Part shown: piece after piece, positions 2-31,308 of the stretch
Position numbering within the stretch: the first letter of the stretch is position 1
Layout of the letters: every line of letters starts with the position of its first letter
NCBI GenBank assembly: GCA_017511865.1
Contig: JAFWIQ010000013.1
Span: 1-37,797, forward strand
Direction of reading: 5' to 3'
Length of the DNA: 37,797 nt
DNA from: Candidatus Saccharimonadota bacterium
GTDB lineage: Bacteria; Patescibacteriota; Saccharimonadia; Saccharimonadales; Saccharimonadaceae
Program-made: the position numbers and the translations under genes
Notes under the pieces: model-generated
Seen by the model: the letters and a program-made list of their open reading frames with translations, nothing else
Database searches by the model: none
What the model was told of the DNA's origin: nothing

Positions 2-952
2 GAGAAGATTAATAATGCCACCGAAACCGGTAAAGGTAAAACTGAAATCGTAGCTCTTGCAAAAGAAGCTGAAGAGGAAACTGATGCGGTTCTGGAACAA
101 TACTTAGATGATTTCTTTGAGAAAAATCCACAATTACTTTCTGTAAAGCTAAGCGAACATTGTATTGAAGGGTTTAGGGATGACAGAGGTCGTGCAACTA
201 CTATCAATGCCATCTCCCCTCTTCCTAATGGCAATATGCTAATTGGAGGACACAAAGACGCTCTTTATGAATACCAAAAACAACCAGATGGTTCTTACAA
301 GCTAAGTAAACATCGTATTGAAGGGTTTAAGGATAAAGACGGCGATGAAACTACTATCCGTGCCATCTCTCCTCTTTCTAATGGTGATATGCTAATTGGA
401 GGACATTACGGCGCTCTTTATGAGTACCAGAAACAACCAGATGGCTCTTATAAACTAAGTGAACACCGTATTGAAGGATTTGAGGATAAAGATGGCGATG
501 AAACTCACGTCTTTGCCATCTCTCCTCTTCCTAATGGCAATATGCTAATTGGAGGACACAAAGGCGCTCTTTATGAATATCAAAAACAACCAGATGGCTC
601 TTACAGACTAAGTAAACACCGTATTGAAGGATTTAAGGATAAATACGGCGATGAAGCTACTATCAATGCCATCTTCCCTCTTTCTAATGGCAATATGCTA
701 ATTGGAGGACATTACGGCGCTCTTTATGAGTACCAGAAACAACCAGATGGCTCTTATAAACTAAGTGAACATCGTATTGAAGGATTTAAGGAAAAAGACG
801 GCGATGAAACAGACATCTATGCCATCTCCCCTCTTCCTGATGGTAATATGCTAATTGGAGGACATTACGGCGCTCTTCATGAAGCTCAGGTACCTCCAAA
901 ATCACTAGAAACCTTAAAACAATCGCTCGATCAGATTGTTGAGCAAGAGTAG
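2..952 (+). CDS. Tandem-repeat beta-propeller-like protein (5' end outside the window)
   Basis: The reading frame is open from base 2, so the gene starts upstream of the window; the ATG at 236 is only an internal Met of a repeat. About 48 non-repeat residues, rich in Glu and Lys, come first. Five copies of a 51-residue unit follow, with a core like ISPLPNGNMLIGGHYGALYEY and then QPDGSYKLSEHRIEGF. The pattern of a hydrophobic strand, Asn-Gly turn, GG and aromatic strand resembles WD40-type or two-component-regulator propeller blades, so a beta-propeller binding or scaffold domain is inferred. Codons are richer in C than in the neighbours (many ATC, CTC). No catalytic motif is visible and the function is unknown. 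It ends with a short helical tail after the last blade. Confidence 0.7.
   Translation, partial: EKINNATETGKGKTEIVALAKEAEEETDAVLEQYLDDFFEKNPQLLSVKLSEHCIEGFRDDRGRATTINAISPLPNGNMLIGGHKDALYEYQKQPDGSYKLSKHRIEGFKDKDGDETTIRAISPLSNGDMLIGGHYGALYEYQKQPDGSYKLSEHRIEGFEDKDGDETHVFAISPLPNGNMLIGGHKGALYEYQKQPDGSYRLSKHRIEGFKDKYGDEATINAIFPLSNGNMLIGGHYGALYEYQKQPDGSYKLSEHRIEGFKEKDGDETDIYAISPLPDGNMLIGGHYGALHEAQVPPKSLETLKQSLDQIVEQE
146..886 (+). repeat. 153-bp tandem coding repeats, about 4.8 copies
   Basis: The unit is 153 bp (51 codons), marked by MLIGGH codons at 236, 389, 542, 695 and 848. Units are nearly identical at the nucleotide level. Units at 236 and 542 share the variant GGACACAAAG, while units at 389, 695 and 848 share GGACATTACGG, which suggests duplication of a two-repeat (306-bp) block. 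Confidence 0.9.
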
Positions 953-995
953 AACGTAAGCTTGCTTAGCAAAAAAAGTAATCCACACTATTTTG

Positions 996-1082
996 TGGTG
1001 CCCTGGACAGGGGTTGAACCTGCACGTCCCGAGGGACACTAGCACCTGAAGCTAGCGCGTCTGCCAATTCCGCCACCGGGGC
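996..1082 (-). tRNA. tRNA-Leu (anticodon CAG)
   Basis: The reverse strand reads GCCCCGGTGGCGGAATTGG at the 5' end and folds into a class II tRNA of 87 nt. The anticodon loop is TTCAGGT (anticodon CAG), the variable arm is GTCCCTCGGGAC, the T loop is TTCAACC, and CCA is encoded at the 3' end (996-998). It closely resembles E. coli tRNA-Leu(CAG). The acceptor stem has one C-A mismatch at pair 5:68. Confidence 0.95.
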
Positions 1083-1100
1083 ACGGGTTAATTATATCAT

Positions 1101-1132
1101 AAAAAAGTTCCCCGGCAGATAAACTGCCGGGG
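1101..1132 (-). terminator. Rho-independent terminator
   Basis: CCCCGGCAG / CTGCCGGGG is a perfect 9-bp stem with a 5-nt loop (1110-1132). On the minus strand it is followed by AAC and then a run of T. It would end transcription of the small gene at 1228-1521 before the tRNA. Confidence 0.85.
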
Positions 1133-1227
1133 TCAATTAAACAGGATGGCATGGTATAGGGCATCAAATTGTCTTGGGAAAAAATTTGATAAATTTAATA
1201 AAAGGGGAAGAAGGAGAATGTGGAGGT

Positions 1228-1521
1228 CTAGTTTTCATCCTCCTCTAGTATTATCTCGATATCGACTTCATTCGCCATCCTGAGTAATTTGTTAAAGAGC
1301 TTAGACGCGGCTTCCGCTGGGAAATCTGCCTGATTTATGATGCACTTTAGTTGTGCATCTTTTTTGTTGATTGCGATTGTTCCGGAGTTGATATTTTGTA
1401 TATCTCCGGTTAGCCCGTCTATTATGTAGACGGTTCCGAATTTTTGTAATTCGGAGAAGATTGCGAACTTCTTTGCAGTTAAGAATTCGCAATTTGCCAT
1501 GACTACCATATTAAACCTCAT
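1228..1521 (-). CDS. Hypothetical protein, 97 aa
   Basis: I do not recognise this family. I chose the ATG at 1521 because AAGGGGG lies 8 nt upstream on the minus strand; an upstream extension to 1587 has no such site. The protein is small and mixed alpha/beta with an acidic C-terminus (IILEEDEN), no signal peptide and no membrane segment. A probable -10 (TACAAT, 1560-1565, minus strand) lies about 40 nt upstream of the start and a strong terminator lies about 100 bp downstream, so it appears to be a single-gene transcript. Those signals favour a real gene over a shadow ORF. Confidence 0.65.
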   Translation of the reverse strand: MRFNMVVMANCEFLTAKKFAIFSELQKFGTVYIIDGLTGDIQNINSGTIAINKKDAQLKCIINQADFPAEAASKLFNKLLRMANEVDIEIILEEDEN

Positions 1522-1610
1522 TATTCTAACCCCCTTGTTTTTTGATATGGCGTGTTTATATTGTATCATACTTTTAAAAAAATGCAACCATTTTCTTGAA
1601 AGAATGTATT

Positions 1611-1619
1611 TGGTATAAT
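1611..1619 (+). promoter_or_regulatory. Extended -10 promoter of pgi-arcC
   Basis: TGGTATAAT ends 25 nt before the pgi ATG. No good -35 is visible. The predicted leader is about 18 nt and carries the Shine-Dalgarno site GGAGG. Confidence 0.6.
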
Positions 1620-1644
1620 ATAATCTGAGATTTGGAGGCTAAAA

Positions 1645-2778
1645 ATGATAAAAATTAATTTCAATATTGAAATAGATGAAAAGAAGACGACGGAGATTCT
1701 GAAAGATATTGCTCGAGATAAAATGGGGGGTTGGATGGAGTTGCCAAAAAAATATGATATGGGTGAGTTTGCCAGAATAAAAGAGGCGGCGAAGAAGATC
1801 AATGAAGAGAGCGAGTATCTAGTTTGTATTGGGATTGGTGGGTCGTATTTGGGGCATCGAGCGATAATTGAAGCACTAAGGCCGCAGTCTGGTACCAAGA
1901 TTGTATATGCTGGGAATTCTCTATCTAAAAGAGAGTTGGATTATGCGCTGGAGGAGGTTGGAGATCATGATTTTTCAATTAATGTGATTTCTAAGTCGGG
2001 GACTACTTTGGAGCCGGCGATAGCATTTGGGGCTTTTAAAGAGAAATTGATTGAAAAGTACGGAAGCAAAGAAGCGGCAAGTAGAATTTATGCGACAACT
2101 GATGCAAAGAAGGGCGCATTGCATGATGAAGCTGTGGCGGAAGGGTATACGATGTTTGTGGTGCCAGAAAATATCGGTGGAAGATATTCGGTGCTTACGG
2201 CGGTAGGACTCTTACCTTTGGCGGTTGCCGGGGTGGATATTGATAAGTTGCTAGAGGGGGCAGCGGGAGCAGTAGAAGGTGTGGTGGAGCCTGCGGTTAA
2301 ATATGCTTGGATGAGATATAAACTTGGCAAAAAAGGGTATGATACGGAGGTTTTTGCTAGTTTTGAGCCTTCCACGATGTATTTTAATGAATGGCTGAAG
2401 CAATTGTTTGGTGAATCAGAGGGGAAAAACAAGCAAGGAATTTTTCCAGCCTCGGTGGTTTATTCGACCGATTTACATTCTTTGGGGCAGTTTATGCAAG
2501 ATGGAAGGCGTAATTTATTTGAGACAATTATTGATTTTCCAACCGATGAATTGAATGCGAAGGCAGTACAAGCGGTAAGATTGGCCCATACTGAGGGGGG
2601 GATTCCTGTACTTAATATGGGAGTTCCTTCGTTTGATGAAAAAGGATTTGGTGAATTAATCTACTTTTTTGAGTTGGCTTGTGCGGTTTCGGCGAAATTG
2701 TTTGGGGTAAATCCTTTTGATCAGCCAGGGGTGGAAAATTATAAAAATGAATTGAAAAAAATAATGGCGGAGGAGTGA
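1645..2778 (+). CDS. pgi: Glucose-6-phosphate isomerase
   Basis: Interconverts glucose 6-phosphate and fructose 6-phosphate in the cytoplasm. Family signatures are clear: IGGSYLGHRA near residue 70, the sugar-phosphate loop SKSGTTLEPA at residues 116-125, ENIGGRYS, and the C-terminal NPFDQPGVENYKN. At 377 aa it is shorter than the roughly 450 aa of Bacillus-type enzymes, mostly because of a trimmed N-terminus. The start is supported by GGAGG 6 nt upstream. The TGA stop overlaps the arcC start (TGATG), so sugar isomerisation and carbamate kinase are co-transcribed, linking glycolysis to the arginine deiminase pathway. Confidence 0.96.
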   Translation: MIKINFNIEIDEKKTTEILKDIARDKMGGWMELPKKYDMGEFARIKEAAKKINEESEYLVCIGIGGSYLGHRAIIEALRPQSGTKIVYAGNSLSKRELDYALEEVGDHDFSINVISKSGTTLEPAIAFGAFKEKLIEKYGSKEAASRIYATTDAKKGALHDEAVAEGYTMFVVPENIGGRYSVLTAVGLLPLAVAGVDIDKLLEGAAGAVEGVVEPAVKYAWMRYKLGKKGYDTEVFASFEPSTMYFNEWLKQLFGESEGKNKQGIFPASVVYSTDLHSLGQFMQDGRRNLFETIIDFPTDELNAKAVQAVRLAHTEGGIPVLNMGVPSFDEKGFGELIYFFELACAVSAKLFGVNPFDQPGVENYKNELKKIMAEE

Positions 2779-3719
2779 TGAAGAAACGGGTGGTACTAGC
2801 ACTGGGCGGAAATGCTTTACAAAAAAACGGGGAAACGACAGCGGAGGCGCAAAAAGTGGTGGCGGCAGAGGTCGGTGAAGTTGTGGTAAGCTTGGCGGAT
2901 AAATATGAAATCGTGATAGCGCATGGAAATGGTCCACAGGTGGGAAGTATTTTGATTCATGAAGAGGCAGCTGGTACCGAGAAAGCACCAGCAATGCCGC
3001 TTGAGACGGCGGTGGCGATGAGTCAGGGGCAAATTGGTTATTGGTTGACGCAGGCTATTAATAACGCTTTTTTGAAGAGGGGTAAAAATCCAAAAGTGGC
3101 AACAGTGGTGTCTCAGGTTGTGGTAGATAAAAAGGATTCGGCCTTTATGGACCCGACTAAGCCGATTGGGCAGTTTTATACACAGAAAGAGGCTAAGAAG
3201 TTGGCTAAAGAGAAGGGCTGGGTGGTAAAAGAAGACGCTGGGAGAGGGTGGCGACGGGTGGTGGCGTCACCGAGGCCGGTAGATATTGTGGAGAAAAAGT
3301 CGATTTTGGAGTTGGTGAAAGATGGGGTAATTGTGATTGCGGCTGGAGGTGGAGGCATACCGGTGTATCGGACGAGAGCGCTGAAAAGATTAAAAGGCGT
3401 AGATGCGGTGATTGACAAGGATTTTGCGGCAGAGAAATTGGCGGAATTGGTAAAGGCTGATATTTTTGTGTCGGTAACTGCGGTGCCGAACGTGTATATT
3501 AATTTTGGGTTGCCAAGCCAGGAGGCTTTGACGAATGTTACGGCGGATGAAATATTGAAGTTGAAGAAATATGGCTATTTTAAGGCTGGATCGATGCTGC
3601 CAAAGGTGGAAGCGGCGGCTACGTTTGCGAAAAAAGGCGGCACGGGGATAATTACGGACATTGAGAGCCTAAAAGCTGCGTTAGCGGGAAAGGCTGGAAC
3701 GATAGTACAAAAAGGGTAG
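2778..3719 (+). CDS. arcC: Carbamate kinase
   Basis: Last step of the arginine deiminase pathway: carbamoyl phosphate + ADP gives ATP + CO2 + NH3. The amino acid kinase fold is evident from the N-terminal VVLALGGNALQ, HGNGPQVG, then VVASPRP and IAAGGGGIPV, with GSMLPKVEAA near the C-terminus. Length (about 313 aa) is normal. The ATG at 2778 overlaps the pgi stop; a GTG at 2775 is an alternative start one codon earlier, and GGAGG serves either. arcC is separated from arcB by about 125 bp with a new promoter, so the pathway is split over two transcripts. Confidence 0.95.
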   Translation: MKKRVVLALGGNALQKNGETTAEAQKVVAAEVGEVVVSLADKYEIVIAHGNGPQVGSILIHEEAAGTEKAPAMPLETAVAMSQGQIGYWLTQAINNAFLKRGKNPKVATVVSQVVVDKKDSAFMDPTKPIGQFYTQKEAKKLAKEKGWVVKEDAGRGWRRVVASPRPVDIVEKKSILELVKDGVIVIAAGGGGIPVYRTRALKRLKGVDAVIDKDFAAEKLAELVKADIFVSVTAVPNVYINFGLPSQEALTNVTADEILKLKKYGYFKAGSMLPKVEAAATFAKKGGTGIITDIESLKAALAGKAGTIVQKG

Positions 3720-3793
3720 TCGGCGCTATTTGGTTGTGGAAAACTTGTGGAAAAATGAATAAAAATTTTGTTCATTTTTGATTGGCAAAGTGC

Positions 3794-4847: not shown

Positions 4848-6076
4848 TGAAAAATTCAATTTGTAATTTTAGTGAGATTAAGCCTTTGAAGAAGGTTTTG
4901 ATGCATAGGCCGGGAGATGAGTTTTTGAATTTGACTCCTAATACTTTGGAAAGACTACTGTTTGATGATATACCTTACCTTAAAATTGCTCAACAAGAGC
5001 ATGATGCTTATGCAAATGCTTTGAGGGCTGAGGGCGTGGAAGTGGTTTATTTGGTTGATTTGGCAGCGGAAGCTTTGGAGGCTGGCGGCAGGACGGTGCG
5101 GCGAAAATTTTTGGAGCAATTTATTGCAGAGGCTGGGGTGACTTCGCCAAAAGTAGCTAAACACTGTTTTGATTTTTTAAATGCAATAAAGGATACTCGA
5201 GATATGGTAAAAAAGTGCATCGCTGGGATAGATATTTCGGAACTGAAGAAATTAGGTGAGGTTTCGGGATTTTATGCGACGCGTGATACTGGAAGAATGA
5301 TATTAGATCCCATTCCGAACGTTTTGTTTCAGCGTGACCCCATGGCGACCGTGGGGCGAGGGGCGACACTGCACCGGATGTGGTCAGTGACTAGGACGAG
5401 GGAATCGATTTTTGCAGAATATATATTTAAATATCATCCGTTTTATGATGATACTAAATTGTATTATGATCGTATGGAGCCATATTGCATTGAGGGTGGC
5501 GACATTCAGGTGTTGTCTGATGAGGTGGTGGCGATTGGGGTCTCGCAGAGGACGGAGCCGGATGCGATTGCTGATTTTGCAAGGCGATTATTTAAGGATA
5601 AAAACAATAAGTTTAAATATGTGCTAGCGATTGATATTCCGGACGAGCGGTCTTTTATGCATCTTGATACGGTGATGACACAGGTGGATGTAGATAAATT
5701 TGCTGTGCAGGATGCAATTATGGATATTTCAACGATTTATGAAATTACTGCGGGGCGAGGTGGAGGAATTGAGATTGTAGAAATTCATCAGAGTTTGTCT
5801 AAAGTTTTGGAGAAATATTTGCACCTAAACCATGTTGAGTTAATAAAGTGTGGTAATGGCAAGAGGATTGATGCAGAGAGAGAGCAATGGAGTGACGGGG
5901 TAAATCTTTTATGTATCCGTCCTGGCGTGGTAGTGGCTTATGATAGAAATTTTGTAACTAATCAGGCTTTGAAGAAGCATGGGATTAAGGTGATAGAAAT
6001 ACCGAGCTCGGAGTTGTCGCGTGGCCGAGGCGGCTCGCACTGCATGACTATGGCGTTAGCCAGAGAGGAGGCGTAG
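4847..6076 (+). CDS. arcA: Arginine deiminase
   Basis: Hydrolyses arginine to citrulline and ammonia. Motifs in order: VLMHRPGDEF near the N-terminus, FQRDPMATVG (substrate-binding Asp), EGGDIQVL, FMHLDTVMTQVD (catalytic His) and GRGGSHCMTMAL, which carries the nucleophilic Cys at about residue 399. The 409-aa length fits the bacterial family. It is preceded by AAGGAGG and overlaps arcB by one base. With arcB, arcC and the downstream antiporter it makes a complete ATP-yielding pathway that also releases ammonia, as reported for host-associated Saccharibacteria. Confidence 0.97.
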   Translation: MKNSICNFSEIKPLKKVLMHRPGDEFLNLTPNTLERLLFDDIPYLKIAQQEHDAYANALRAEGVEVVYLVDLAAEALEAGGRTVRRKFLEQFIAEAGVTSPKVAKHCFDFLNAIKDTRDMVKKCIAGIDISELKKLGEVSGFYATRDTGRMILDPIPNVLFQRDPMATVGRGATLHRMWSVTRTRESIFAEYIFKYHPFYDDTKLYYDRMEPYCIEGGDIQVLSDEVVAIGVSQRTEPDAIADFARRLFKDKNNKFKYVLAIDIPDERSFMHLDTVMTQVDVDKFAVQDAIMDISTIYEITAGRGGGIEIVEIHQSLSKVLEKYLHLNHVELIKCGNGKRIDAEREQWSDGVNLLCIRPGVVVAYDRNFVTNQALKKHGIKVIEIPSSELSRGRGGSHCMTMALAREEA

Positions 6077-11569: not shown

Positions 11570-14038
11570 ATGCAAGCAGAATTTAGTGAAATTATGAATA
11601 AATTATCCGAGAATGCAAGGTTTGCTTTGCAGAAGGCGGATTTTTATAGTAAGAGATATAACAATGGTTATATGGGGACTGAACATTTGCTACTTGGAAT
11701 TATGTCGATAGATATTTCTACTGGTGCAAAGATGATTCGTGAAGAGGGTGCGACTTTGGAAGAAGTTGAGAAAGCACTCAATAAGGTGGCCGTGGAAGTA
11801 CCCGGTAGTGATATGGCGATGATGTCTTTGTCTGAGGCGGTGATTTTGACACTTCGGATGGCGCAGGGCTATACGAAGGAGCAGGGTTTGACAGTGATTG
11901 GAACTGAGCATATATTATATGCTCTGCTTTCTCAGCCAAATTCGAGAGCGTCTTTGATTTTACGAGGGCTTAAGGTTGATAATGAAAAAATTTTGGACGA
12001 AATTGAAGCTTTGGTGGAAGAGCAGACAAAAGATGAAAAATTGAAAGCCGAGAAGGCGAAATATTTGAAGAAGACGCCTTTAAAGTTTTTAAATCGTTAT
12101 GGTAAGGACTTGACCGAAGAAGCTAGAGCGGGGAAGCTTGATACGGTGATTGGTCGTGAGAATGAAATTGAACGTGTGGTGACGGTTTTGTCGCGGCGGA
12201 CAAAATCCAACCCAGTGCTTATAGGTGAGGCTGGAGTAGGCAAAACGGCAATTGTGGAAGGTTTGGCAACGCGTATTGTTAAAAATGAAGTACCCGGAAA
12301 TTTGATTGGTAAACATATTTATCAGGTAGATTTGTCTAGCGTGGTGGCGGGAACAAAATTCCGAGGAGAATTTGAGGAGAGGATAAAAGGAATTGTGGAT
12401 GAAGCCACTGGCGACGATAGTATATTGCTATTTATAGATGAGATTCATTTGCTTTCTGGTGCAGGCTCTAGTGAGGGGAGCATGGATGCAGCGAATATTC
12501 TAAAGCCAGCATTGGCACGTAATTCTATTAATTTGATTGGCGCGACGACGCTTGACGAATATCGTAAGTCGATTGAGAAGGATAAAGCTTTGTCTCGACG
12601 GTTTCAGACTGTGATGGTGGAAGAGCCTAGCGCAGCGGTGACTCTTCGAATTCTAAAAGGAATCAAAAGTCATTACGAAAAACATCATGGTGTGATAATT
12701 CCAGATTCTATTTTGGAAACAGCAATTACAATGGGGCAAAGATACATCAACGATCGTTTTATGCCCGACAAGGTGATTGATATTATTGATGAGGCTAGTG
12801 CGATTGCTAAGGTTGCGGCAGACAAAAAAGGTGGTGGTAAATATAAGAAATTAAAGATTGAAAAATCTACACTTGAGAATAAAATTGCTGAAGCGGCGGA
12901 GAATGAGGATTACGAAAAAGCGGCTGGCTACAAAACCGAGCTTGCTAAATTGGAACAAGAAATTAAAAAGTTAGAAAAAGCTGGCGTGAAGAAAACCGAG
13001 AATCCAAAATTGACGGAAGAAAATTTAGCTACAGCGGTTTCTTTGAAGACCGGAATTCCTGTATCCAAGGTGCATGGGTCCGAGATGAAAATGTTGATGA
13101 ATTTGGAAGATGAGCTTAAGAAGTCGATTATTGGGCAAGATGAAGCGATTAAGGCTGTAGCTAAGGCGATTAGGAGAGGGCGAAGTGGCATTGCGGATGC
13201 GAGAAGGCCGATTGGTTCGTTCTTATTTATGGGCCCAACTGGCGTGGGCAAGACAGAATTGGCAAGGGTGATTGCAAGAGAGGTATTTGGTGGCGAGAAT
13301 GCCCTGATTAAAATCGATATGAGTGAATTTGGCGAAAAACATAATGTATCGCGCTTAGTGGGTGCGCCGGCTGGCTACATTGGCTATGATGATGGGGGAA
13401 AATTAACTGAGGCGGTGCGTCGCAAACCTTACTCGGTAATTCTATTTGACGAAATTGAAAAAGCACATCCGGATGTATTTAATTTATTGCTTCAGATTTT
13501 GGAAGATGGCGTATTAACGGACGGACAAGGTAATAAAATTAAGTTCAATAATACGATTGTAATTTTGACTTCGAATTTGGGTTCGGCGGATATGTATCGC
13601 GAAAGCGAACTTGGTTTTACGGCAAAAACTGCTAAGGATAAAAAAGCGTTAGAAGAAGAGTATGAAGAGAATAAGGCCTATGCGATGAAGGCACTCAAAA
13701 AAGTGATGCGACCAGAACTTATTAATCGTTTGGATAATATTTTGGTGTTTCATGCGTTAACAAGAAAAAATGTGGAGAAAATTTTTGATAATTTGATTGA
13801 CGATTTGAGGAAGCGTCTTGCGACAAAGGGGGTTGGAATTAAGATTGATGAAAAAGCAAAGGATTATTTGATTCGTGAAGGTTATGACCCGAAGAATGGA
13901 GCGAGGCCATTGAGGAGAAAAATTGAAGACGAAGTGGAATCATTGATTTCCGAAGAAATAATTGCTGGGAATTTGAAGAAGGGTGACATTCCGGTTTTGA
14001 AATACGTAAACAAGAAATTGAAATTAGTAAAGGAGTAA
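11570..14038 (+). CDS. clpC: ATP-dependent Clp protease ATPase subunit ClpC
   Basis: AAA+ unfoldase that feeds proteins to ClpP. Order: the Clp-N double repeat ([10 protein letters not shown]... [12 protein letters not shown], then [10 protein letters not shown]), AAA domain 1 with Walker A GEAGVGKT at about 219-226, a UVR-type coiled middle segment (about 425-470, [18 protein letters not shown]), and AAA domain 2 with Walker A GPTGVGKT at about 555-562 and the D2-small domain [15 protein letters not shown]. The 822 aa and UVR segment mark ClpC rather than ClpB or ClpA. The start follows AGAGG. Heat-shock control by HrcA is shown by the CIRCE operator; clpP follows 2 bp after the stop. Confidence 0.96.
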
Positions 14039-27759: not shown

Positions 27760-29056
27760 ATTTGAGCTCCTTTTCTTCGCCGGTTTCGAAATTTTTGGCG
27801 TTTAGGATTTTTGTATTGACTTCTTCTTCGCCTATAACGATGCCGTTTTCGGCGATTTTGGAAGCATAGGCTATTTTGTCGCTAAGTTTTTTGTCTATTA
27901 GGACGATGGTTGAGCTGTGATTTTTTTCACGGAGCTTTTTTGCGACGTTGAAGGCTTCGTCAAATTCGTGTTCGGAAACTGGGATAACTGCGTAGTCGAT
28001 TTTTTCTTTTGTGGAGTCTGGAAGTAAATGTTTTTCGTTAAGAACGTAGAATAATCTTGTGAGGCCAATGGATCCACCAACGCCAGGGAAGGATTTTTCA
28101 GAGAAGTATCCGGTGAGGTTTTCGTAGCGTCCACCACCACAAACTGAACCGATACTTTTATATTCTGGTAAGATAAATTCGAAGACGGTCCCGGTGTAAT
28201 AATCAAGGCCGCGGACGATTTTCATGTCGGCGATGATATTTTCTGTGAGACCTAATGATTCAAGAAGATAGAGGACTTGGTCTAATTCGGCTACGCCGGC
28301 ACTGAATTTTTCATTTTTAATTTCTAAATTATTTAATTCCTTGATGACCTTGAAGCGATTGCCATTTAATTCTATGAAATTAAGAAGTTTTTGGATGTTA
28401 TCTGGTTTTAACTTCAACTCTTCAAAATTCATTTTAGTTTTTTCGGGGGTGACTTTTTCGGCGTGGTCGATGATGCTGTAGATATCTTTTGAAAGGGATT
28501 GGAGACCCAAGGCTTCTAATAGACCGGAAAGGATTTTTCGGTTGCTGATGCGAGCGAGGACTGGGGTGTTTAGATTAAAAGTGGAGAAAGTATCGAGTAG
28601 AGTTGAAATGACATCTGCGTCGTAAGCTATTGAAAGAGTATTGCGTCCAATGATATCGATGTCGCATTGGTAGAATTCGCGAAAACGACCTTTTTGGGCA
28701 CGTTCACCACGGAAATTGAGACCGACTTGGGAAACTTTAAAAGGGAAAGTGAGGTCGTTTTCGTGTTCGACGACATAGCGGGCGAGTGGAACGGTGTGGT
28801 CGAAACGAAGGGCCTGACTGGAATCGGTTTCGGTTTCGGCGGTTTTTATGACCTTGTAAATTTGTTTTTCGGTGTCGCCGCCAGCTTTGGCAAGGAGGAT
28901 TTCGGTGCGTTCGATGGAGGGGGTTTCGATATTAAAATAGCCGTGCTGGTTGTAAGAATTGTTGATTTTGAGTTTGAGGGCATCAAAAGTCTTTTGAATT
29001 TCTGGTAAAAGCTCTTGGGTGCCCGAGATTGGCGTAGTATTAATTTTCTTGCTCAT
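27752..29056 (-). CDS. hisS: Histidyl-tRNA synthetase
   Basis: Charges tRNA-His. Class II motifs: TQELLPEIQ, motif 2 RFDHTVPLARYV and FREFYQCDIDIIG, the histidine-specific GLDYYTGTVFEF, and motif 3 GVGGSIGLTRLFYVL, followed by an anticodon-binding domain. The length of 434 aa is normal. The -10 box (TATAAT, 29066-29071) ends 9 nt before the ATG, so the mRNA should have almost no leader. The gene is head of the hisS-glyS operon, diverging from tRNA-Phe. Confidence 0.96.
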   Translation of the reverse strand: MSKKINTTPISGTQELLPEIQKTFDALKLKINNSYNQHGYFNIETPSIERTEILLAKAGGDTEKQIYKVIKTAETETDSSQALRFDHTVPLARYVVEHENDLTFPFKVSQVGLNFRGERAQKGRFREFYQCDIDIIGRNTLSIAYDADVISTLLDTFSTFNLNTPVLARISNRKILSGLLEALGLQSLSKDIYSIIDHAEKVTPEKTKMNFEELKLKPDNIQKLLNFIELNGNRFKVIKELNNLEIKNEKFSAGVAELDQVLYLLESLGLTENIIADMKIVRGLDYYTGTVFEFILPEYKSIGSVCGGGRYENLTGYFSEKSFPGVGGSIGLTRLFYVLNEKHLLPDSTKEKIDYAVIPVSEHEFDEAFNVAKKLREKNHSSTIVLIDKKLSDKIAYASKIAENGIVIGEEEVNTKILNAKNFETGEEKELKYE

Positions 29057-29065
29057 ATACTTTAA

Positions 29066-29074
29066 ATTATACCA
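29066..29074 (-). promoter_or_regulatory. Extended -10 of hisS-glyS
   Basis: The minus strand reads TGGTATAAT, ending 9 nt before the hisS ATG. Only 9 bp separate it from the opposing -10 of tRNA-Phe. Confidence 0.65.
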
Positions 29075-29080
29075 CAGGTG

Positions 29081-29089
29081 TGATATAAT
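29081..29089 (+). promoter_or_regulatory. Extended -10 of tRNA-Phe
   Basis: TGATATAAT, 11 nt before the tRNA 5' end, so the primary transcript has a very short 5' extension. Confidence 0.65.
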
Positions 29090-29100
29090 GTGTGAGATGT

Positions 29101-29176
29101 GGCGCTGTAGCTCAGTTGGTAGAGCAGAGGCCTGAAGAGCCTTGTGTCACTGGTTCAAGTCCAGTCGGCGCCACCA
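29101..29176 (+). tRNA. tRNA-Phe (anticodon GAA)
   Basis: A 76-nt cloverleaf: acceptor GGCGCTG / CGGCGCC, D arm GCTCAGTTGGTAGAGC, anticodon loop CTGAAGA, T loop TTCAAGT, CCA encoded. Confidence 0.97.
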
Positions 29177-29189
29177 GATTATATATGAG

Positions 29190-29211
29190 TCGGCATTTTT
29201 GCCGATTTTTT
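29190..29211 (+). terminator. Terminator of tRNA-Phe
   Basis: TCGGCA / TGCCGA stem with a short loop, followed by six T residues. Confidence 0.85.
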
Positions 29212-29275
29212 AGTAGTAAGTTTCCGTTAAGTACTCTACAAGTTCTAGGGTGCTTTTTGTACCAATTTTACGCAA

Positions 29276-29299
29276 AAAATGCGTCTGAAAACGCATTTT
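29276..29299. terminator. Possible bidirectional terminator
   Basis: AAAATGCGT / ACGCATTTT, a perfect 9-bp stem with a 6-nt loop and A/T runs on both sides. No gene ends directly beside it. Confidence 0.5.
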
Positions 29300-29348
29300 A
29301 CCCTTATAAATCATCTGTTAATACCCTAAACAATTTGGTCTAAACTTT

Positions 29349-29404
29349 TTCCAAAAAGAGAGCCCCCGGCTCTATCCACACTGGATGCGTGGAAGCCGGG
29401 GGTT
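29349..29404 (-). terminator. Terminator of the gene at 29414-29971
   Basis: CCCCCGGC / GCCGGGGG stem with an inner CCAC / GTGG stem. On the minus strand it is followed by CTCTCTTTTTGG. Confidence 0.85.
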
Positions 29405-29413
29405 TTAGATGTG

Positions 29414-29971
29414 TTAGGCAGGGTCAATCTTCGAAAGAAATCCGATATCGTTGCCTTCCTCATCGCAGACGATGTAATCCTGGTAGGATTTCTCAGTCTT
29501 CGTGAGGATGTTAGCATCCGGGGTTCCGTCCTCTTTGGTGCCGTACTTCACCCAGTATGCCTGTCCGGGGAAACCGGTGCTTACGCCCCAGTCGGTCTTG
29601 ATAGACCAAGAGCCGTCGGGATCCTGGGTGATATTTGCACCCTCAAGAAACTTGGGGAACTCCTCTGTGACTGCCATAGCCGACATGACGGTGGCCTTCT
29701 TATAGAAGACGCCGTCGATCTCGACTAAGTTGGTTGCGGCATTTCCGATACACCAGCAGTTGTACCCGCTAGGAGTTTTATCGGAAGTTTCATAACCGAT
29801 TACCGACCCAAGTGGGCAGGTTTCATTGCCCTCGACGCACGTAAGATATAACTTACCGTGTGCGATATCGACGGAACTCCTGAGGAAATCCGGGATATCG
29901 CTGGCTTTGCTGATTCTTATTGCATCTTTCTTCTGGCCTGCCTGCTTATGAATTCTTATCATTTTTGCCAT
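29414..29971 (-). CDS. Hypothetical protein, 185 aa, compositionally foreign
   Basis: I do not recognise this family. I chose the ATG at 29971 because AAAGGAG lies 7 nt upstream; longer versions from a TTG at 30079 would translate a structured leader. The protein is soluble, without signal peptide or membrane helix, and has Cys clusters (LTCVEGNETCPLG, NCWCIGN) and a Gly/Trp-rich middle (DPDGSWSIKTDWG). Codons favour GCC, CTC, ATC and GAC, unlike the G/T-ending codons of the neighbours, which suggests recent transfer. It has a consensus promoter, a long leader and its own terminator, and lies next to tRNA-Phe. A phage or plasmid origin is possible but no integrase or att repeat is visible. 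Confidence 0.7.
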   Translation of the reverse strand: MAKMIRIHKQAGQKKDAIRISKASDIPDFLRSSVDIAHGKLYLTCVEGNETCPLGSVIGYETSDKTPSGYNCWCIGNAATNLVEIDGVFYKKATVMSAMAVTEEFPKFLEGANITQDPDGSWSIKTDWGVSTGFPGQAYWVKYGTKEDGTPDANILTKTEKSYQDYIVCDEEGNDIGFLSKIDPA

Positions 29972-29978
29972 AATTTTT

Positions 29979-30142
29979 CTCCTTTCGGCGTTGCCGCCTC
30001 TAAAAAAATTTTTTATTTTTTGAGCCGGCTTTTTGCGGCTCATTTTGATTACCATATAGATAAACAAAATGAGTCGCAAAATTTCCGTAAAGGAGAATTA
30101 AACGCATCTTCTTAATGTTCTATAAGCTCTCAACGAACTTAT
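29979..30142 (-). promoter_or_regulatory. Structured 5' leader, about 165 nt, candidate cis-regulator
   Basis: On the minus strand, GCGACTCATTTTG (30065-30077) can pair with CAAAATGAGCCGC (30035-30047), 12 of 13 positions. A competing hairpin GAGCCG / CGGCTC (30022-30041) overlaps the second arm, so the two exclude each other. A small GGCG-GCAA-CGCC hairpin (29987-29998) sits just before the Shine-Dalgarno site. The layout suggests an attenuator or thermosensor-like switch, but no known riboswitch class is recognised. Confidence 0.45.
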
Positions 30143-30148
30143 GTTTTC

Positions 30149-30177
30149 ATTATACCACACATGCTTATTTTTGTCAA
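30149..30177 (-). promoter_or_regulatory. Consensus sigma-70 promoter
   Basis: The minus strand carries TTGACA (30172-30177), 17 bp, and TATAAT (30149-30154), both perfect, with a TG one base before the -10. It is one of the two strongest-looking promoters in the window and drives the foreign gene. Between it and the AlkD-like gene (30178-30303) I see nothing else. Confidence 0.9.
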
Positions 30178-30303
30178 TATTTTTGTAATAATTCAACGCT
30201 TTTGCAATTTGCTGTAAATGCGTTAGGTGGATGCGGCGGTATTAATGGAATAAAAGAGGAGGCAACCCTGAACTATAGCGCTGACATTAGGTCGTTACTA
30301 TTT

Positions 30304-30999
30304 TTATTTCCTTATTTTCTTTAAGAGATTTTTTGTTTTTGTGTCTACGCGATACGAATCGCAAATTTTTGAGATGGTTTTGTTAAAAGTCCACGTTGGC
30401 ATCTTGTTTTTTGATAAATAATCCATTGTGCCCGAAGGAAATTTGATAAAACATTCCGAAACTAGCCATGCCAAGCCCATTCTTACATAATATTCTTCAC
30501 GGTTAGATAATTTATCTACTTTGGCAAAAATATATTTTAAATAGTCAGGTTCTATGTAGCAACATTTGAGAAGAACTAGGCCTACCCGTGTGGTAAATTC
30601 GTATTCATTGTCTAATAATTGTGTGATTTTTTTCTTGAAAAAGTCTTCTTTATTTTTTTGTATGGGTTTGCTTATTGCTGAGCAAAAAAGATCACAGGTG
30701 CTCCAATTATCGATATACTTTAAATGGGAATCGAAGCGCTTTAGTATATGTTCATAAGGTAATCTCGCAATCAGAAAGCCGCGTAGTAGAATTCCTTCAT
30801 GAGTGGTGGGATGGATTGCGATAAATTCTTCGATTTTTTCCGATGGAACTTGTTTGGCATATTTTCGTATTTGCGGTACTTTGACGCCCAGAATTGGGTA
30901 TTTGCTCGTGCAGATTTTTATTGTAAAATCACGGTATTTATTGTCGGCGCTTTGGGCTAATTTGGTTTTTAGCGTTGCGTAGTCGTTGATTGTGTCCAT
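30304..30999 (-). CDS. DNA alkylation repair protein, AlkD-like HEAT-repeat family
   Basis: The 231-aa all-helical protein matches the DNA alkylation repair enzyme family: ILGVKVPQIRKYAKQV near residues 36-51, then EGILLRGFLIARL, the active-site-like DNWSTCDLFCSAI (Asp and Trp in the W-x-x-D region) and RMGLAWLVSECFIKFP. Known AlkD enzymes remove alkylated purines without flipping the base. A catalytic Asp-Trp combination appears present, but many relatives are uncharacterised, so glycosylase activity is inferred. The -10 region (TGTGATAAT) lies just before the ATG, without a Shine-Dalgarno site. Confidence 0.85.
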   Translation of the reverse strand: MDTINDYATLKTKLAQSADNKYRDFTIKICTSKYPILGVKVPQIRKYAKQVPSEKIEEFIAIHPTTHEGILLRGFLIARLPYEHILKRFDSHLKYIDNWSTCDLFCSAISKPIQKNKEDFFKKKITQLLDNEYEFTTRVGLVLLKCCYIEPDYLKYIFAKVDKLSNREEYYVRMGLAWLVSECFIKFPSGTMDYLSKNKMPTWTFNKTISKICDSYRVDTKTKNLLKKIRK

Positions 31000-31056
31000 A
31001 CAATATATATTATCACAGTACGATGTCTGTATTTTTTGCGGAATTTTTGATTTTTG

Positions 31057-31065
31057 TGTTATAAT
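31057..31065 (+). promoter_or_regulatory. Extended -10 of the tRNA-Val/tRNA-Lys transcript
   Basis: TGTTATAAT, 18 nt before tRNA-Val. Confidence 0.65.
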
Positions 31066-31083
31066 AGTGGTAGATACTTGTGT

Positions 31084-31160
31084 GGGCGGTTAGCTCAGTT
31101 GGCTAGAGCGCGTCTTTGACGTAGACGAGGTCACAGGTTCGACTCCTGTATCGCCCACCA
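31084..31160 (+). tRNA. tRNA-Val (anticodon GAC)
   Basis: 77 nt: acceptor GGGCGGT / ATCGCCC, anticodon stem CGTCT / AGACG with loop TTGACGT, T loop TTCGACT, CCA encoded. Confidence 0.96.
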
Positions 31161-31209
31161 CGCGTTTAAGATGCGTGTTGATAGAGGAGTTTGTTCTCAT
31201 TAATAATTT

Positions 31210-31286
31210 GGGTCGGTAGCTCAGCTGGTTAGAGCACGGGCCTTTTAAGCCCGGTGTCGAGGGTTCGAGCCCCTCCCGACTCACCA
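31210..31286 (+). tRNA. tRNA-Lys (anticodon TTT)
   Basis: 77 nt: acceptor GGGTCGG / CCGACTC, anticodon stem CGGGC / GCCCG with loop CTTTTAA, T loop TTCGAGC, CCA encoded. It probably shares a transcript with tRNA-Val. Confidence 0.96.
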
Positions 31287-31308
31287 AGCATTCGAGAGAA
31301 ATGAAAAA

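Follow-up and report, generated by a model that had tools for sequence, protein, structure and literature searches.

Interchangeable single-gene cassettes arrayed at the ends of tRNA genes in a genus of Saccharibacteria

Introduction

Integron cassette arrays consist of tandem short units, usually of one ORF each, that carry diverse cargo and are inserted at an anchor site, and in CALINs the arrays lack an integrase and are mobilized in trans (PMC11389934). The cassettes of these systems carry attC sites with R''..R' core pairs, and attI serves as the anchor. A different strategy is used by tycheposons and other tRNA-site genomic islands, which insert at the 3' ends of tRNA genes with regeneration of the tRNA and are described as elements of 4–200 kb with a tyrosine recombinase (PMC10872708; PMC4383910). 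The additive flexible island fGI-2 of Methylophilaceae contains repeats of a tRNA end (the last 20 nt of tRNA-Lys) and variable islands from 330 bp, which encode mostly unknown proteins (PMC10872708). IMEX-type elements have no recombinase of their own and exploit host Xer at dif. Saccharibacteria are genome-reduced epibionts whose gene acquisition is poorly understood. Our search of the PMC literature returned no listing that names cassette arrays at tRNA ends in Saccharibacteria or Patescibacteria, although absence from print is not claimed because most subscription journals and bioRxiv preprints were not covered.

Here, we analyzed a 37,797-nt stretch of a Candidatus Saccharimonadota bacterium genome (contig JAFWIQ010000013.1 of assembly GCA_017511865.1; hereafter the window). 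A first-pass annotation, made from the sequence alone, had described a foreign single-gene cassette with a perfect promoter, a switch-like leader, and a terminator beside tRNA-Phe. The 185-aa protein of this cassette was found to be the cargo of one of many one-gene units that are inserted, often in rows, at the ends of tRNA genes in many species of the genus. Compared with integrons and CALINs, these units carry their own promoter and are anchored at a tRNA 3' end rather than at attI. Compared with tycheposons and tRNA-site islands, they are approximately 1 kb long with no linked tyrosine recombinase, one set of ends is used at six tRNA types, and the apparent displaced fragment is only six bases. 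The fGI-2 island involves one tRNA gene, and we found no description of a conserved 169-nt arm or left end for it. With IMEX-type elements, the units share the absence of their own recombinase and host Xer as a candidate.

Results and Discussion

Features of the locus

The positions of the features are shown in Table 1. The observation made in the first-pass annotation was confirmed. The promoter matched the consensus at 12 of 12 positions, with a TG before the -10 element, and was the only perfect site in 29000–31300, where 12 promoter-like sites were found against 4.3 expected. The leader extends 177 nt to the ATG, and the 196-nt fold had a predicted stability of -63.3 kcal/mol (z -7.3), with 0 of 200 shuffled sequences as stable. 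The terminator hairpin was present at 29360–29403. The claim of foreign codon use was partly right. The GC3 of the ORF was an outlier (0.613 against a mean of 0.413 and a maximum of 0.529 for 34 other ORFs), but C-ending codons, which had been described as unlike those of the neighbors, were not (0.387 against 0.407 in hisS on the same strand). An Rfam search of the window returned only tRNAs, and self-comparison of the window yielded no useful att-type direct repeats.

Table 1. Positions of the cassette and its surroundings within the window.
Position	Strand	Feature	Remark
29101..29176	+	tRNA-Phe (gaa)	Anchor gene; its last six bases, CCACCA (29171-29176), are the shared core
29171..29338	-	Right-end arm of the unit	169-position HMM, E 2e-44
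29190..29211	+	Intrinsic-terminator-like hairpin inside the arm (TCGGC-loop-GCCGA-T6)	Reads from the tRNA gene; terminator role inferred
29226..29237	+	Repeat 1 in the arm (GTTAAGTACTCT)	Candidate recombinase arm-type site; role inferred
29315..29338	+	Repeat 2 in the arm (CTGTTAATACCCTAAACAATTTGG)	Related to repeat 1 and to the left-end ATTAACA; role inferred
29351..29404	-	Terminator of the cargo gene	Homologous to those of other units with the same leader
29414..29971	-	Cargo ORF, 185 aa
29972..30148	-	Structured leader	Shared with unrelated ORFs in other units
29987..29998	-	Short hairpin	Just upstream of the Shine-Dalgarno
30031..30081	-	Long hairpin of the leader	Conserved, covarying
30149..30177	-	Promoter TTGACA-17-TATAAT
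30304..30999	-	DNA-alkylation-repair-like gene (PF08713)	Outer part of the same insertion
31084..31286	+	tRNA-Val and tRNA-Lys	Far side of the insertion site

A modular leader

To determine the distribution of the leader, the promoter plus leader was compared by BLAST with 174 genomes of the genus. Matches were found in 152 of the 174 genomes, mostly at positions 2–34, which represent a very common promoter core close to TTGACAAAAATAAGCATATGTGGTATAAT, spacer included. Beyond this core, the same leader was found in genomes without the protein, before unrelated ORFs of 127 aa (locus L043), 101 aa (L044), 254 aa (L045), and 219 aa (L047) and at L046 and L049, and the terminator was also shared by several of them. 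In an alignment of 11 leaders, 97.9% of cells of the long hairpin paired and 10 of 22 pairs showed changes on both sides, against 2.8 in shuffles, and 0 of 500 shuffles reached either value. The short hairpin next to the Shine-Dalgarno was kept in most rows. These results indicate that an RNA structure is conserved while the ORF behind it changes. The mutually exclusive hairpins proposed in the first-pass annotation are plausible, as an anti-Shine-Dalgarno at 30089–30097 can pair with the Shine-Dalgarno at 29977–29985, but translational control by this pairing is an inference from the sequence.

The arm and its junctions

Comparison of the window with these loci showed that the approximately 175 nt between the terminator and tRNA-Phe recur beside other tRNA genes, twice in one array. 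When searched without any tRNA base, this stretch (the arm) was found in 91 of 174 genomes; at most four candidates were scored per genome, and copy numbers are thus lower bounds. From 142 typed rows of this search, 114 arm regions were listed, of which 60 (mostly strong hits) were retrieved, and 11 other loci and the window were added to give 72 regions of 810,241 bases. An HMM built in two rounds detected 111 arm copies in these regions, 84 of them with 100 bits or more. One arm was counted twice because L063 and L121 overlap, leaving 110 distinct copies. In the reversed regions, the same model gave 14 hits at E < 0.1 (best 4.2e-4, 19.3 bits), and the few arms below 25 bits are therefore unsafe. 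At the order level, 15 of 216 genomes, in 2 of 128 genera (g1 and g11), had an arm.

Of the 111 arms, 43 abutted the 3' end of a tRNA gene at the same base (Ile-gat, 12; Phe, 11; Met, 7; Val-cac, 6; Ile-tat, 6; and Leu-caa, 1), leaving the tRNA intact, and 38 abutted the left end of a next unit, forming tandem arrays. A further nine had an insert of up to 174 nt before the tRNA, 11 were truncated, and 10 fitted no class. None of the 111 had a tRNA on the same strand within 60 nt. More than one arm, and up to four, was held by 37 of 64 locus-strand sets. The intact arms mostly ended in ...TCTGGTGG, the complement of tRNA CCACCA, followed either by the tRNA or by GGGCGAATTG..CAGG.ATTAACA. Hairpin-rich inserts of about 50–170 nt were located between the tRNA 3' end and the arm, including just after tRNA-Phe at L171, L172, L174, L181, L191, L193, and L196, and several ended in another copy of the last bases of the tRNA (GGCGCCACCA), perhaps representing a second, tiny tRNA-end repeat element.

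A left-end HMM gave 86 hits and none in the reversed regions at E < 0.1. Some left ends (L113, L122, L129, L131, and L135) followed a different right end (...AATAGTTGAAAATTATTTTATAACC.. or similar before TGGTGG), which points to a second subtype of arm. At outer left ends, with no arm before them, TGGTGG was present in 31 of 41 (background 0.019 per 36 nt; L063 was left out of this count), and the 30 bases before it were unrelated to each other (mean identity 0.28). This is what recombination or insertion at a six-base core would leave. TGGTGG was the only candidate for a displaced tRNA fragment at the far ends, and neither it nor a left end was found for the unit in the window.

Empty sites were examined at 30 tRNA-Phe loci, out of 160 genomes with a match. 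In 7 of the 30, the next tRNA gene (Lys) began 9–89 nt after tRNA-Phe, whereas 1907 nt separate tRNA-Phe from tRNA-Val in the window. A gene of the PF08713 type present in this stretch, with no clear relation to the cassette, was found again (L146 and L109) in the outer part of the tRNA-Phe array of genome G152 and near arms in genome G085.

Units, cargo, and inferred movement

A left end was located upstream of 76 arms. These units had a median length of 1018 bp (range 547–3736) and usually contained one ORF running toward the tRNA and starting about 100 nt after the left end, although the choice of start codons was rough and some units gave short or no ORFs. Many units lacked the leader described above but kept the ends. 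Together with the window protein, the 69 cargo proteins of 80 aa or more formed 42 clusters, of which 35 were single. Among the 68 proteins retrieved, 38 Pfam families matched at 1e-4, including NUDIX (five members), methyltransferases, deformylase, Ham1, NMN transporter, LysE, LD-carboxypeptidase, PIF1 helicase, and HNH. Some PADLOC models matched single members, which is no proof of defense. The largest cluster (19 of 69) is a protein beginning with MEQN that has a probable membrane anchor, as judged by eye. One copy is in the genome of the window itself (L147, contig C16, reverse strand 5089–5958), in a second locus that also bears an arm and this promoter.

Near-identical units were found at different places. 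A NUDIX unit was 94.8% identical over 713 nt between L141 (genome G073, at tRNA-Val) and L113 (genome G030, inside an array), with the match running from the left-end core to the arm end, and L142 (genome G057, at tRNA-Met) was 93.8% identical to L113. The arms of different units were only 77–85% identical. A methyltransferase unit was 91.8% identical over 926 nt between genomes G095 (tRNA-Phe) and G029. The 85% orthologue of the window protein lies in a unit at tRNA-Ile that has a left end but no detectable arm. Neither copy of this cargo therefore lies in a complete unit, and the cassette reading of this particular gene rests on the shared leader, terminator, and arm. Other relatives (L022–L031) showed no arm at E < 1e-3.

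Search for a recombinase

PF00589 matched 164 of 174 genomes, often once, and is thus near-universal rather than specific to arrays. The genome of the window (86% complete) had a single match, a 319-aa Xer-like protein that falls below the curated cut-offs of the XerC, XerD, and integron-integrase models (126 bits against TIGR02249, cut-off 265). No Xer relative was found among the cargo proteins, and no integrase was among 25 of the 38 Pfam families. In a single case (contig C42 of G029; L155 and L199), the Xer-like gene lay about 4 kb from arms. Serine recombinases were found in 21 of 32 arm-bearing genomes and are thus not required. The attC signature was detected in only 4 of 86 full arms (shuffled mean 0.9, maximum 4), indicating that the arms are not attC sites.

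Interpretation

The interpretation given in the first-pass annotation was partly supported. An acquired single-gene unit beside a tRNA, with its own expression signals and absent from most sister genomes, is correct, and the search it suggested for att-type sequence was the right one. That sequence is the arm between the terminator and the tRNA, which was missed, as was the genus-wide family of units with different cargo. A defense, host-interaction, or phage role for this protein was not supported.

We consider it likely that the cassette belongs to a family of integrase-less, site-specifically inserted one-gene units. These tRNA-anchored arrays of single-gene cassettes are integron-like in what they do and are not integrons by the tests made here. 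In this view, a circular or linear unit would recombine through TGGTGG with the 3' end of a tRNA gene, the tRNA end would be regenerated, and the arm would supply a new terminator. Further units would enter at the same core, giving tandem arrays anchored at the tRNA. The recombinase would act in trans, and the leading candidate is the single Xer-like tyrosine recombinase of the genome. The ends, arrays, exact tRNA junctions, empty sites, cargo diversity, and near-identical whole units at different loci were demonstrated by the analysis, whereas the circular form, the recombinase and its activity, the terminator role, and the benefit of the cargo are inferred; no excision product or recombinase activity was seen.

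It is possible, though somewhat less likely than not, that this is a distinct gene-cassette recombination system of Saccharibacteria, in which a common pool of one-gene units with their own recombination ends is shared between species and captured in order at the CCACCA ends of several tRNA genes by the single Xer-like recombinase of the cell, the tRNA serving as the anchor that attI serves in integrons. Such a pool of interchangeable single genes, among them NUDIX, methyltransferase, deformylase, transporters, nucleases, and many unknowns, would be a concrete route of gene acquisition, testable in cultured relatives, and a second solution, with different parts, to the problem that integrons solve. 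It also provides ends by which unknown cargo genes, perhaps for host interaction or defense, can be collected.

Other explanations appear unlikely. The units could be MITE-like cargo elements moved by a transposase that prefers the tRNA 3' end and duplicates TGGTGG, as a six-base repeat at both ends and several different targets also fit a target-site duplication. However, no terminal inverted repeat was found, as the left end and the reverse-complemented right end share 5 of 19 bases, which is within chance, and the target is the same six bases in one orientation. Remnants of tRNA-integrating phages, left as attP-plus-cargo ends, are slightly less likely still. The 3' ends of tRNA genes are classic phage targets and the protein gives weak phage-like hints, but exact patterns of the left end and arm had no match in viral contigs, no relative of the protein was found there, and the units are uniformly about 1 kb with one ORF. 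Homologous recombination by RecA alone, through shared flanks of transformed DNA, is more doubtful. Arms and leaders are about 70–95% identical between units, which is enough for some homologous exchange and could explain swapping of the ORF under one leader, but it does not explain first entry at six different tRNA types at the same base, the core repeat at outer ends, or the empty sites. That the leader is simply the riboregulator of a regulon and the tRNA location incidental is very unlikely as a full account, given the units that keep the ends without this leader and the exact tRNA junctions of 43 of 111 arms, although its recurrence before unrelated ORFs and its covariation mean that it may still be true of the leader.

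The 185-aa protein and its relatives

The absence of a recognized family, stated in the first-pass annotation, was confirmed for Pfam (0 families at E ≤ 10) and NCBIfam. PHROGs gave one weak local match (E 8e-4, 45 residues). Searches of the PDB by sequence and by fold gave nothing convincing, and no relative was found in viral, phage, and plasmid collections, where six phage rows at E 0.2 were taken as chance. The AlphaFold2 model (mean pLDDT 87, pTM 0.57) predicted two beta-rich halves of uncertain arrangement. An internal duplication was suggested by the order of strands in the model but was not supported by BLASTP or by profile comparison of the halves (probability 9%). Foldseek gave no significant match; sub-threshold matches of about half the protein to small phage proteins included two named PGDYG protein (E 0.28 and 0.48, probability 0.93 and 0.66, 68–72 columns). 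A phage-derived two-domain protein is possible, but less likely than not.

The condition that would have overturned the first-pass reading, a syntenic orthologue showing the gene to be ancestral, did not hold. A match was found in 10 of 174 genomes of the genus and in 14 of 394 genomes of the family. The matches at L015 (weak, inside a 1641-aa frame) and L018 sit inside very long frames, are probably chance, and were left out of the protein family. In the genome collection, five loci encoded a relative, four from Saccharibacteria records, of which one (L006) is frameshifted, and one frameshifted copy on a 152-kb contig of a MAG labeled Clostridia (L005, 5001–5523; 74% in its best segment), which suggests cross-phylum transfer or misbinning. 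The nearest relative (85%) is in genome G032. The gene is thus sporadic, and its surroundings differ. In genus g11, a second hairpin-leader unit was located before another ORF at L029 (contig C29 of genome G393, 12475–13264), about 4 kb from the cargo relative.
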